This document shows, in pieces, positions 33,344-37,336 of a stretch of DNA of 37,336 bases. The notes below the pieces were generated by a model. It did not search any database. It was not told the origin of the DNA and worked only from the letters and a program-made list of their open reading frames with translations. Numbering within the stretch: position 1 is the first letter of the stretch; every line of letters begins with the position of its first letter. The translations under genes and the position numbers were made by a program. Origin of the DNA: Candidatus Dormiibacterota bacterium (GTDB lineage: Bacteria; Chloroflexota; Dormibacteria; Aeolococcales; Bog-877). The stretch spans positions 1 through 37,336 of the forward strand of contig JABEUU010000067.1 in the NCBI GenBank assembly GCA_013044295.1, in the 5' to 3' direction.

Positions 33344-33904
33344 CTAGCGCAGCCGCTCCACCTGGAGCAGATCCAGCTCCACCGGAGTCTCCCTGCCGAA
33401 CATGTTCACCATCACCTTGAGCTTGCCCTTGTCGGCGTTGATCTCACCGACCTTGCCGTGGAAGTCGGTGAACGGCCCATCCACGACCCTGACCGCGTCT
33501 CCGATCTTGAACTCCACCTGCACCTTGGCCTGGACCTCGTTGCCGATCTGGTGCTGGATGGAGCGCATCTCCGACTCCTGGAGGGGCACCGGACGGGTCC
33601 CCGAGCCCACGAAGCTGGTCACCCCAGGGGTGTTTCGGACCACGTACCAGGACTCGTCCGACATCACCATCCGGACCAGGATGTAGCCAGGGAAGATCCG
33701 CTTGGAGACGTGCCGGCGCTGGCCGTCCTTGATCTCCAGGACGTCCTCGGTGGGCACCAGCACCTCAAAGATCTTGTCGTGCATGTCCATCGACTCGACC
33801 CTCTTGAGGAGGTTGGCCTTGACCTTGTCCTCGTGGCCGGAGTACGCGTGGATAACGTACCAGCTGGCTTGCTCGGTCGCTTCTGCGGTCTTGGCAGCTG
33901 TCAC
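33344..33904 (-). CDS. nusG: transcription termination/antitermination protein NusG
   Basis: NusG binds the beta' clamp and links RNA polymerase to Rho or to the ribosome through S10. The 186-residue protein has the NGN domain (ASWYVIHAYSGHEDKVKANL; FPGYILVRMVMSDESWYVVR) and a C-terminal KOW domain (FKIGDAVRVVDGPFTDFHGK). It starts with GTG at 33904 with GGAG 7 nt upstream. The order secE-nusG-rplK is nearly universal in bacteria. Confidence 0.98.
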   Translation of the reverse strand: MTAAKTAEATEQASWYVIHAYSGHEDKVKANLLKRVESMDMHDKIFEVLVPTEDVLEIKDGQRRHVSKRIFPGYILVRMVMSDESWYVVRNTPGVTSFVGSGTRPVPLQESEMRSIQHQIGNEVQAKVQVEFKIGDAVRVVDGPFTDFHGKVGEINADKGKLKVMVNMFGRETPVELDLLQVERLR

Positions 33905-33934: not shown

Positions 33935-34264
33935 TCAAGGCGTCGGCGAGGCCGGCGGGGTTGCGGTCGGGGTCGACGACGGTGCCGCCGAAGGGGCGGC
34001 GGTGGCCGGGGCGGTAGCGCTCGGAGCCGGCGTGACCGCCGGGGTCGGGGTGGTGTAGAGCGGCGCCAGTAGGGCCGTCAGCCCGAAGTCTACGAGACCG
34101 AGGAACGCTCCCAGCAGGACGACCGTCACGATCACGACCCCGGTCATCTGCCGCAGTTCCGGCCAAGTTGGCCAGACCGTCTTCCTGAGTTCGCTCCATA
34201 CCTCTCTTAAGTAGCCTCCGGATTCAGCTCCCTCGGCTGGGGTCTCGCTTACGACGTTGGCCAA
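33935..34264 (-). CDS. secE: preprotein translocase subunit SecE with Pro/Thr/Ala/Ser tail
   Basis: SecE clamps SecY in the membrane. The core is normal for a single-span SecE: amphipathic segment YLREVWSELRKTVWPTWPEL (residues 18-37) and one membrane helix at about 42-66. Residues 71-109 are an added tail made of only five residue types: 12 Pro, 11 Ala, 10 Thr, 5 Ser and 1 Val. In single-span SecE the C-terminus faces outside, so the tail would be extracytoplasmic. The start is TTG at 34264 with GAGGG 7 nt upstream. It follows tRNA-Trp by 33 nt. Confidence 0.96.
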   Translation of the reverse strand: MANVVSETPAEGAESGGYLREVWSELRKTVWPTWPELRQMTGVVIVTVVLLGAFLGLVDFGLTALLAPLYTTPTPAVTPAPSATAPATAAPSAAPSSTPTATPPASPTP

Positions 34265-34297
34265 ATGTGGTCCCTCTCAGCCATTGACTAGGTTCTG

Positions 34298-34370
34298 CAG
34301 GGGCGGCACGGCTCGAACGCGCGACCTGCGGTTTTGGAGACCGCTGCTCTACCAGCTGAGCTACGCCCCT
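34298..34370 (-). tRNA. trnW: tRNA-Trp (anticodon CCA)
   Basis: The minus strand folds into a full cloverleaf. The acceptor stem pairs AGGGGCG with CGCCCCT, and the D arm is GCTC/GAGC. The anticodon stem is GCGGT/ACCGC around the loop CTCCAAA (anticodon CCA), and the T arm has loop TTCGAGC. The discriminator base is G, as expected for tRNA-Trp. The 3' CCA is not encoded. A tRNA-Trp just upstream of secE is a classic bacterial arrangement. It is probably co-transcribed with rpmG and secE and released by RNase processing. Confidence 0.97.
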
Positions 34371-34394: not shown

Positions 34395-34547
34395 CTACTT
34401 GGTCTCACGGTGGGCGGTGTGACGACGACACCTGCGACAGTACTTGCGCAGCTCCACCCGATCGGGATCGTTGCGCTTGTTCTTCTGGGTGGTGTAGTTA
34501 CGCTCGCGGCACTCGCCGCACTGCAGGGTGATTATGGTGGCAGGCAC
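34395..34547 (-). CDS. rpmG: 50S ribosomal protein L33 (zinc-binding type)
   Basis: L33 is a small protein near the E site. The 50-residue product reads (M)[19 protein letters not shown] and continues to [18 protein letters not shown]. Ligands C10, C13, C37 and C40 identify the zinc-binding (C+) form. It starts with GTG at 34547, with GGAG about 8 nt upstream. It is the first gene of the rpmG-trnW-secE-nusG unit and lies 24 nt upstream of the tRNA. Confidence 0.96.
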
Positions 34548-34563
34548 CGGCGACTCTCCAGAC

Positions 34564-34586
34564 AAAAACGCCTGGCCAAGCCAGGC
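34564..34586 (-). terminator. terminator-like hairpin in the rpmG leader
   Basis: On the minus strand GCCTGGC and GCCAGGC form a 7-bp stem with a TTG loop (34586-34570), followed by G and five T (34568-34564). This has the form of an intrinsic terminator but lies between the predicted rpmG promoter and the rpmG ribosome-binding site, about 6 nt after the predicted transcription start. It could be an attenuator, a 5' stabilising hairpin, or a barrier to read-through from upstream. Confidence 0.6.
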
Positions 34587-34810: not shown

Positions 34811-35467
34811 TTGCAGCCTGATCCGGGTAGCGGCACTCGGTGCGACGTTTCTTGGTACGTGATCACTGATGCGGGGATCGGGCGCTTGTGGCTTGCCGGG
34901 ACGGCGTTCGACACCTGGCTCGAGGTCGAGCTCTCGCGTGCCCTGGCCGGCACCGGAACGCGCTCAGCGTGCCTCTCATTCCGACCACTCGCGCGCCGCA
35001 CGCCCTTTGGCTGGCGGCCTCTCCACGGAGCTGAGACCCTGGCCAAGTTCGGCCTGGGGGCGGTGGCCGTGGCCGCGACGGCTGGCGGCCTAAGCCTCGC
35101 CTCCCACCCGGTGGCCCCCAATGGTCCCAGTCCTAGCCCCTCCGTCTCCTCCGGCTTGGCGGGACCGAGGGCGCTCGCAAGCTCTGGGGCTCCGGTCCGC
35201 CACGGCCGCTATCAAGGTGGGCTCTCCGCGATGCGGGTGGCTGCGGCCCGAGGGGCTGAGAAGCGAGTCGGCCACCCCTCACGTTCTGCCGCTCCGCAAG
35301 TGGCGGGCCAGGTCGCGATCGCAGGTCCCGGAAGTGAGTCCGAGGGTGGACGCCCTCGTGCGGGAAGCAGTGCCAGCCGGCTGGGGATGCCCATGCCGGG
35401 CGCCCACGCTCTCGTGCATGGATCGACCAACGGTGCCCAACCAACCCAAAACTCCTCAAAGAGGTGA
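34811..35467 (+). CDS. hypothetical protein with one membrane segment
   Basis: I do not recognise a family. The frame is 218 codons from a TTG with no clear ribosome-binding site, so the true start may be further in. The best coding evidence is a hydrophobic stretch at about residues 79-97 (KFGLGAVAVAATAGGLSLAS) followed by a Pro/Ser-rich, probably extracytoplasmic, region of about 120 residues. The reading frame also uses mostly G or C at third positions there. Its stop lies 7 nt before the next ATG, and the SD of that gene overlaps its last codons, which suggests an operon. It could still be a high-GC chance frame. Confidence 0.4.
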   Translation: MQPDPGSGTRCDVSWYVITDAGIGRLWLAGTAFDTWLEVELSRALAGTGTRSACLSFRPLARRTPFGWRPLHGAETLAKFGLGAVAVAATAGGLSLASHPVAPNGPSPSPSVSSGLAGPRALASSGAPVRHGRYQGGLSAMRVAAARGAEKRVGHPSRSAAPQVAGQVAIAGPGSESEGGRPRAGSSASRLGMPMPGAHALVHGSTNGAQPTQNSSKR

Positions 35468-35474
35468 TCCAACC

Positions 35475-36560
35475 ATGAGATTCCATTCCAGTCAGGGGCA
35501 ACGCGGGCAGGTGGCGGTGCTGTTCGCGCTGGCGGCTGTGGCCCTGGTGGCTATCGTCGGTCTGGCCTTGGACGCCGGACAGGCATTCGTGAGTCAGCGA
35601 GCTCTCCAGGGCGGCTCAGACACAGCAGCGCAGTCCGGGGCGACAATGTTAGCAGTGGACTACAGCAACTGTGTGGCCACCGCCGGGACTGCCAACCCAG
35701 CAAGCGGCGACGGGACATACAGTCAGACGACCATTGCTGCTGACGTCACGCAGTTAGCGCTATACGCAGCCGCGGCTCAGGGTCGGGCCACATCCCCCCC
35801 GGGGGTTTCCTTCGTCAACTACACCGGGGGCGGGGTTGAGATCAACTCATCTCCGACGCCATTTTGCACGGTTGGTTCGTGGACAGGGCCGTCAGGCATC
35901 GAAGTCAGCACTAGCGACACGCATCCTACAAGTATGCTTGGAGTCGTTGGGATCAACTCAGCGACCGAAACGGCGCACGCAATAGCGCTGATCGGGACCC
36001 CGACCAGTACCACTGACGGGGCTCCTTTCGGCGTGTGGTACCAGTCGTGCCCTTCAACTGACCTCAAGGCCGGGGAGGCCGTCACTCTTTTGAGCCCAAC
36101 GTGGGACTCAACTACATGCGGCAACGTGGACACTCGAAACTCTTTCAAAGGTTATTTCAAGCTGCCTGGACCTATAACGTTGGGTAGCTCAGGGTGTATC
36201 CAAACCGGGACCGGATCGGGCGGAGCAATCGGCACGGATCCGAACCCGCCAGCATCCCCCAACTCTGTTTATGTGCCAATGATCACCAAAGTCTACTCAT
36301 TTGGGGACACCATTCCCGAGAACGGTCTTGGCTCCAACTGCCCATCGATTTCGGTGAAAGGTACATTCGACTTGCTGTACTCGGGGTTCGCTTATGTGAA
36401 GGTCAACCCGACTAGTTCAAGCTCGACAATCACCGGAGTGGTTCAGGGAGTTGCTTCGTTCACGACCGGTCTTCAAGTGTGCGCGGTACGCGACACGAGT
36501 TGCTCTTCGGGATCGTCTTCTGCGAGTTCCGAGCCCGCCGTTCCCTACATCTGGCAGTGA
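35475..36560 (+). CDS. Tad/TadG-like pilus-assembly protein
   Basis: The first 55 residues match the N-terminal Tad domain of TadG-like proteins: RGQVAVLFALAAVALVAIVG forms a membrane helix (about residues 10-34), followed by DAGQAFVSQRALQGGSDTAA and a small hydrophobic run. The remaining 300 residues of the 361-residue protein are Ser/Thr/Gly-rich with scattered cysteines and probably lie outside the membrane. The ATG at 35475 has a strong site, AGAGGTGATCC, just upstream. Base composition is visibly less GC-rich than in the ribosomal genes. Tad proteins act in Flp-type pilus assembly, adhesion or related secretion; the exact role here is inferred. It precedes two TadE-like genes. Confidence 0.8.
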   Translation: MRFHSSQGQRGQVAVLFALAAVALVAIVGLALDAGQAFVSQRALQGGSDTAAQSGATMLAVDYSNCVATAGTANPASGDGTYSQTTIAADVTQLALYAAAAQGRATSPPGVSFVNYTGGGVEINSSPTPFCTVGSWTGPSGIEVSTSDTHPTSMLGVVGINSATETAHAIALIGTPTSTTDGAPFGVWYQSCPSTDLKAGEAVTLLSPTWDSTTCGNVDTRNSFKGYFKLPGPITLGSSGCIQTGTGSGGAIGTDPNPPASPNSVYVPMITKVYSFGDTIPENGLGSNCPSISVKGTFDLLYSGFAYVKVNPTSSSSTITGVVQGVASFTTGLQVCAVRDTSCSSGSSSASSEPAVPYIWQ

Positions 36561-36564
36561 TGTC

Positions 36565-36963
36565 GTGACCAGACAACGCGGCCAGAGCCTGGTGGAGTTC
36601 GCCTTGGTCCTTCCTCTCTTGCTGTTCCTGCTGGCCGGAGGCACTGACCTAGCGCGCGCCTACTTCGTGGGTATTCAGGTCGCTGACGGGGCACGGCAGG
36701 CGGCTCTATATGCCTCGGAGAACGGGGCCACTTACACCTACGCACAACTGAAGGAAATCGCCAAGAACAACGCTAGCGGTGGCGGCATTCTGGGGTGTCC
36801 AGCGGCCAGTGTTTCAGTCACCGCTGGGAGCAGCACTGGCAGTTCGACGCTTTACGACCAGCCGGTCACAGTAGTCTGCGAGCTTCCCATGCTCACCCCG
36901 CTCATTCCATCTCCCGTGGCCATAAGGGCAACCGCGAAAGTCCTGATAGTGCCGGGCTCGTGA
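36565..36963 (+). CDS. TadE-like pseudopilin
   Basis: The 132-residue product starts (M)TRQRGQSLVEFALVLPLLLF and continues LLAGGTDLARAYFVGIQVAD. This is the TadE signature: a Gly before a hydrophobic helix with Glu at position +5 relative to it, then the conserved Arg-Ala-Ala-type helix. TadE-like proteins are processed by a prepilin peptidase and help assemble Flp pili. The GTG at 36565 lies 4 nt after the preceding gene and has no strong SD, so it may depend on coupled translation. Its stop overlaps the next ATG by 1 nt. Confidence 0.8.
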   Translation: MTRQRGQSLVEFALVLPLLLFLLAGGTDLARAYFVGIQVADGARQAALYASENGATYTYAQLKEIAKNNASGGGILGCPAASVSVTAGSSTGSSTLYDQPVTVVCELPMLTPLIPSPVAIRATAKVLIVPGS

Positions 36964-37336
36964 TGATCACGAGGCATCGCCTGGACTCATCCCGCTGGAC
37001 CGCCCGAGGTGACCGGCCTCGTGGTCCGGGCCGCCAACAGACGGGAGCCACCATGGTGGAGTTCGCCCTGATCGCACCGATCTTCTTTGCGCTTGTCTTT
37101 GGCATCTTCAGTGTGGCCACCTATGTTCTGGAGGTCCAGGTGGCTAATCAGTCGGCTCAAGCCGCGGCACGATGGGGCGTAGCGGCCCAGAATTTTGTGG
37201 TCCCACCCGGAGGTACGGCTCCCGCGCCCCAGTGCCCGGCTGCGCCTCCTCCCCCCGGGCTGATAGCGGCCGCCCAAGCGGCCGCAGGGCCGTTTGCCGA
37301 CTCCATCAACTCATCTACGGTGCAGGACTTGGCGGC
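36963..37336 (+). CDS. second TadE-like pseudopilin (3'-truncated by window edge)
   Basis: From the ATG at 36963 about 124 codons are visible. GRQQTGATMVEFALIAPIFF and ALVFGIFSVATYVLEVQVAN form the TadE N-terminal motif and helix. An unusually long basic leader of about 25 residues (MITRHRLDSSRWTARGDRPR) precedes the Gly-containing processing site. A Pro-rich patch (PPGGTAPAPQCPAAPPPPG) follows later. The ATG overlaps the previous stop (TGATG), showing operon coupling. The gene runs off the right edge. Confidence 0.78.
   Translation, partial: MITRHRLDSSRWTARGDRPRGPGRQQTGATMVEFALIAPIFFALVFGIFSVATYVLEVQVANQSAQAAARWGVAAQNFVVPPGGTAPAPQCPAAPPPPGLIAAAQAAAGPFADSINSSTVQDLA

Follow-up and report, generated by a model that had tools for sequence, protein, structure and literature searches.

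The SecE protein encoded in a 37,336-nucleotide stretch of DNA from a Candidatus Dormiibacterota bacterium (the whole stretch is referred to here as the window) ends in a long extension composed of proline, threonine, alanine, serine and a single valine. Comparison with related genomes demonstrates that this tail is real and lineage-specific, being carried by most members of one order of Dormibacteria. SecE belongs to the core of the translocon, and every SecE gene that we read outside this order either ends near the membrane helix or enters a second hydrophobic stretch. The appearance of a free, predicted outer tail on SecE, with none on SecG, throughout most of an order amounts to a natural experiment on the insertion of a translocon subunit, and the tailed protein is also a candidate for a glycosylated translocon.

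The open reading frame at 33935-34264 is SecE by sequence criteria, from which SecY binding and a role in translocation are predicted. The translated frame scored 69.4 bits against PF00584 (cut-off 22.7) and 51.8 bits against TIGR00964 (cut-off 27.55), both above the respective cut-off, and the profile of its core matched 13 solved SecE sequences. The neighborhood is also that of a secE gene, with nusG and then rplK (L11), both identified by Pfam, lying directly 3' of the frame; beyond rplK there are two reading frames that, recognized by inspection and not by a family search, we take to be rplA and rplJ. The coordinates of the locus are collected in Table 1. Further along the window (35121-37336, plus strand), three consecutive reading frames match Tad/TadE pilus-assembly families (PF13400 once and PF07811 twice).

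Table 1 Features of the secE locus in the window
Feature	Position	Strand	Evidence or detail
secE	33935..34264	(-)	ORF, 109 aa, TTG start, TGA stop; PF00584, TIGR00964, solved SecE chains by profile
TGA stop of secE	33935-33937	(-)	
P/T/A/S tail of SecE, residues 71-109	33938..34054	(-)	composition; coil in model; similar tail in 36/39 SecE genes of the order
SecE membrane helix, about residues 42-63	34076..34141	(-)	hydropathy maximum; helix 34-70 in model
SecE first helix, residues 15-30	34175..34222	(-)	model; cytoplasmic side inferred from SecE homology
nusG, directly downstream of secE	33344..33904	(-)	ORF; PF02357; TIGR00922
tRNA-Trp, upstream of secE	34297..34370	(-)	
rpmG (ribosomal protein L33), upstream of secE	34395..34565	(-)	ORF; PF00471

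Analysis of the tail composition agreed with the initial annotation, which had described residues 71-109 as containing only proline, alanine, threonine, serine and one valine; a recount of these 39 residues gave P12, A11, T10, S5 and V1. The position proposed for the tail, 33935-34051, was approximately right, but it takes in the stop codon and omits the first threonine codon, and the corrected span is the one listed in Table 1. The second base is C in 37 of the 39 tail codons while the third bases are mixed (G 18, C 15, T 4, A 2), so the tail-coding DNA is not a simple repeat. Among 20,000 random GC-matched peptides of 39 residues, the mean number of P/A/T/S residues was 14 and the maximum 26, with none reaching 36. 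Translation of the window in six frames gave 8 stretches with at least 36 such residues out of 74,440 stretches of this length, and the six that were listed are all registers of the SecE tail. An AlphaFold2 model of the protein placed helices at residues 15-30 and 34-70 and coil at 71-109, as would be expected from the earlier claim that the tail directly follows the single membrane helix, and this order of helices fits a SecE-type architecture. The mean pLDDT of the model was 80.4, falling to 59-73 in those blocks where most of the tail lies, and the pTM was 0.38; the hydropathy maximum lies at about residues 42-62. Foldseek returned no PDB matches for the model. The best reading of these results is that the tail is disordered and almost free of charge. 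SecE adopts an N-in, C-out topology. Because the homologues have their C-terminus outside, the tail is probably extracytoplasmic and would stand at the exit of the SecYEG channel.

To compare SecE proteins across genomes, tail length was counted onward from the last residue of the conserved SecE core (residue 63 in the window protein). Of 61 relatives, 50 gave a PF00584 match, as did 293 of 301 genomes sampled from the phylum, and a profile built from tailed SecE matched 96 of 110 genomes of the class. Within the order, which consists of families f1 and f2, 11 of 50 genomes had no SecE match and hence lie outside the tail count. In the 39 remaining genes a P/T/S/A tail was present in 36, with a length of 33-58 residues (median 48); 25 of these tails extend at least 45 residues past the core and 11 fall below 45. 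The three short genes of the order continue for only 14, 21 and 21 residues. None of the 53 SecE genes read from the sister families of the same class, f3 and f4, possesses such a tail (8-26 residues past the core); this count covers 53 of the 57 genomes with a SecE match, leaving out G353, G359, G342 and G297. The same was found for all 63 genes from the rest of the phylum, a sample of the 293 phylum genomes with SecE, and for all 36 genes on other contigs that were scanned (8-14 residues). The outside total is therefore 0 of 152 (53 class, 63 phylum and 36 contig genes), in which the contig genes may partly overlap the class and phylum sets.

These counts bear out the expectation that bacterial SecE usually ends shortly after its helix, since 148 of the 152 outside genes end 7-26 residues past the core and the other four at 36-37. 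These four (L302, L310, L314 and L322), from other families of the phylum, continue into an apparent second hydrophobic helix that would return the C-terminus to the inside. One phylum member, G159, has two SecE matches in one genome. The comparison of C-termini across Dormibacteria and Chloroflexota, proposed in the initial annotation, thus confines the tail to one order among the genes read. Relatives that stop near residue 70, which the annotation had named as a reason for doubt, do exist, but among those read only outside the order and in one three-genome clade inside it. The annotation's other reason for doubt, a frameshift, can be excluded, since a comparable tail is present in frame in 35 further genomes of the order. 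We found no point in favor of a frameshift or assembly error in the contig, and the probability of such an error is negligible.

A tree built from NusG (50 loci), L11 (47) and the SecE core elaborated on the history of the tail. The three short-tailed genes form one clade inside f2 (support 0.983), and therefore most simply represent one loss. Families f1 (support 0.999) and f2 (0.924) were each recovered, and the two were not recovered together; because the split competing with their union has a support of 0.017, one gain and two gains of the tail are both compatible with the tree. Tails of different genera are not alignable residue by residue, and their sequence and length vary freely. Their make-up is nevertheless uniform in kind: over 1427 residues from 36 genes, T accounts for 23.5, A for 22.5, P for 20.1, S for 17.7 and V for 6.2 percent, with 24 charged residues (one of them acidic), no cysteine and no aromatic residue. 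In four ungapped sets of close relatives, tail codons displayed 27 changes at positions 1 and 2 against 31 at position 3, where neutrality predicts 2:1 (p=0.0013), and core codons displayed 6 against 41. The same codon-position test restricted to the six closest genomes was not significant (p=0.14); in these genomes dN/dS was 0.395 for the tail and 0.036 for the core. Composition, and not sequence, is held loosely under weak purifying selection.

The free variation between genera, the elevated dN/dS of the tail relative to the core and the loss in one clade would also suit a functionless tail, a harmless and drifting read-on from which charged and hydrophobic residues are excluded only because they harm insertion. 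However, the composition has been kept across the divergence of two families, which is not expected of a neutral extension, the codon-position test departs from neutrality, and the tail is retained in 36 of the 39 genes; we consider a functionless tail unlikely. Selection might instead act on the DNA or RNA, for example on a C-rich Rho-loading stretch ahead of nusG, with the peptide as a by-product. The tail-coding strand is indeed 55% C and 26% G, whereas C makes up 28-31% of four neighboring genes and of the remaining part of secE. Its fourfold third bases, however, show no preference for C (551 C and 470 G in tails, 503 C and 402 G in cores), so that the C excess stems from the amino acids, and codon position 3 is the one that changes most. 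Such an RNA element is very improbable.

A general habit of translocon subunits can be rejected: none of the 49 SecG genes read, 40 of which belong to the order, has a tail, and SecG ends 2-9 residues past its matched core. SecG matches were obtained in 57 of the 61 relatives; none was found in the window's own genome (G000), whose assembly is 91% complete, and the gene may simply be missing from it. A general habit of the proteome was likewise rejected: a sample of G000 comprising the window and 20 contig stretches (226,481 bases) contains 2071 stop-to-stop reading frames, of which 2 have such a C-terminal tail. The second of these contains no hydrophobic stretch and looks spurious, leaving SecE as the only one with a tail behind a hydrophobic stretch. 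Scanning the whole genome with a pattern yielded no exact matches outside secE and contig C181, and with up to two mismatches it gave runs on C6, C41, C64, C74, C107, C122, C161, C181 and C225; the pattern is also sensitive to C at other codon positions and, being symmetrical, has a built-in control that carries no information. Contigs C161, C181 and C225 were then read, leaving out C41, C64, C74, C107 and C122 (1-2 mismatches). The minus strand of C181 encodes an ice-binding-like protein (L353, PF11999) whose Pro/Thr stalk leads into a hydrophobic C-terminal segment that has a basic end, and this protein resembles a wall-anchored surface protein. C161 encodes a protein with one helix and then a P/T-type linker, which has no Pfam match, and the adjoining gene encodes a glucosaminidase-domain protein (PF01832) with a similar linker. 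No such run was seen on reading C225. In the cases read, the composition of the SecE tail is that of putative outer linkers, whose carriers look exported. The resemblance to linkers noted at the outset therefore holds for the stalks and linkers of three exported-looking proteins of the same genome. The term wall-spanning linker fits the SecE tail poorly, since no sequence follows it and it joins nothing. In a tail-less sister family, a reading frame of G050 (L188, contig C9, 11300-12388, plus strand) contains a long ASPSASPSA-type repeat; runs of this type thus occur in that family, though not on SecE.

Single-helix SecE is normally tail-anchored, with a helix that leaves the ribosome only once translation has ended. 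According to PMC11589881, co-translational insertion of a helix requires about 45 residues behind it, YidC can serve short C-out tails whose hydrophilicity is low, E. coli C-tails fail once their summed cost exceeds about 5-6, and YidC is cited as necessary for E. coli SecE. Addition of a 102-residue TolR domain made tail-anchored models dependent on SRP and Sec, and YidC mattered little for them with or without this domain (PMC6794478). Streptomyces coelicolor SecE is described as behaving as tail-anchored in PMC3087755, and for plastid SECE1 and SECE2 the tails given in PMC6857650 are no longer than 30 residues. With 39 residues after its predicted helix, the window SecE exceeds the limit of about 30 and falls outside the tail-anchored class as so delimited. 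The summed hydrophilicity cost was 24-55 for the tails and 2.2-15.5 (median 9.8) in f3 and f4; this sum is crude and serves as a relative measure only, and it does not separate the insertion routes cleanly because the median of the tail-less families already exceeds the published limit. YidC is encoded in 60 of the 61 relatives. Loss of YidC was therefore rejected as the cause of the tail, and a change of route was not forced by it.

We consider the best explanation, with about an even chance of being correct, to be that a disordered outer tail moved SecE from the tail-anchored class to SRP- and Sec-dependent insertion. The SecE of this order would have gained an unstructured C-terminal tail standing outside at the SecYEG exit. 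With the tail, the SecE helix could emerge, or nearly so, during ongoing translation, and a long hydrophilic segment would have to cross the membrane; taken together, these two conditions suggest that insertion of SecE should depend on SRP and on a SecYEG channel already in place instead of YidC or an unassisted route. Once outside, the tail would work in the manner of the Pro/Thr-rich stalks on the exported-looking proteins of the genome, as a disordered spacer or bristle, and it may be O-mannosylated by the encoded PMT-type enzyme while leaving the channel. The route switch is favored by tail lengths of 33-58 residues past the core, which lie near the 45-residue threshold given in PMC11589881. 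Against it, the window SecE has only 39 residues from the end of the helix (residue 70), 11 of the 36 tails remain below 45 even by the longer measure, the TolR addition in PMC6794478 is far longer than the SecE tail, and nearly all relatives retain YidC. The clade that lives without the tail also counts against this explanation. A more elaborate form, in which SecE is made only by a pre-existing translocon, its mannosylated tail passes through SecYEG so that assembly is autocatalytic, and the bristle assists or guards emerging chains, is speculative and decidedly unlikely.

Alternatively, the tail might chiefly be a platform for glycosylation. As an O-mannosylated, mucin-like bristle positioned where chains leave the channel, it would hold these chains or keep wall polymers at a distance, and the insertion route would be a side effect. 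All 15 serine and threonine residues of the tail have a proline within two residues, and PMC12331936 reports that the Mycobacterium tuberculosis PMT prefers Pro-rich Ser/Thr sites and describes it as acting on Sec-translocated chains. G000 encodes a protein with matches to PF02366 (63.1 bits) and PF16192 (43.9 bits), both above the cut-off; against the NCBI PMT equivalog the same protein scored 109.8 with a cut-off of 800. PF02366 is unspecific, with matches in 8 of 14 controls, while PF16192 matches only one of the 14, Corynebacterium glutamicum. PF16192 matches were found in 57 of the 61 relatives, comprising 46 of 50 in the order and 11 of 11 in f3 and f4. This last count speaks against a glycosylation platform, as these families have no tail; so does G018, a genome 98% complete with a tailed SecE and no PF16192 match. 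The short-tailed G019 has two strong PF16192 matches. PMT as the cause of the tail was rejected: because PMT-type genes are equally common in the tail-less relatives, PMT permits the tail and does not explain it. Glycosylation of the tail is possible, given the encoded PMT-type protein, and its role as a platform is a tentative proposal of lesser probability than the change of insertion route.

A literature search, with titles and opening abstracts of the matches listed and few subscription journals covered, returned no report of such a SecE tail. From its sequence, the protein appears to be a known SecE to which a lineage-specific and apparently new tail has been added. It shares with the single-helix bacterial SecE of the Bacillus subtilis and S. 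coelicolor type the same core, one membrane helix and a place upstream of nusG; while those proteins end near the helix, the window SecE adds 39 P/T/A/S residues. Like tail-anchored proteins, including plastid SECE1 and SECE2, it has one helix, no visible signal sequence and an N-terminal part placed inside, but in 36 of the 39 genes of the order the tail runs 33-58 residues beyond the core and so falls outside the definition of at most 30 residues given in PMC6857650. With bacterial O-mannosyltransferase substrates, as described in PMC12331936, it shares serine and threonine near proline and an expected exit through the Sec channel, which makes the tail a candidate by sequence, although PMT-type genes do not track it. 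The Pro/Thr/Ser/Ala stalks of exported bacterial proteins have the same composition as the SecE tail; those stalks join or raise a domain or an anchor, whereas the SecE tail ends free and its carrier is a subunit of the translocon.
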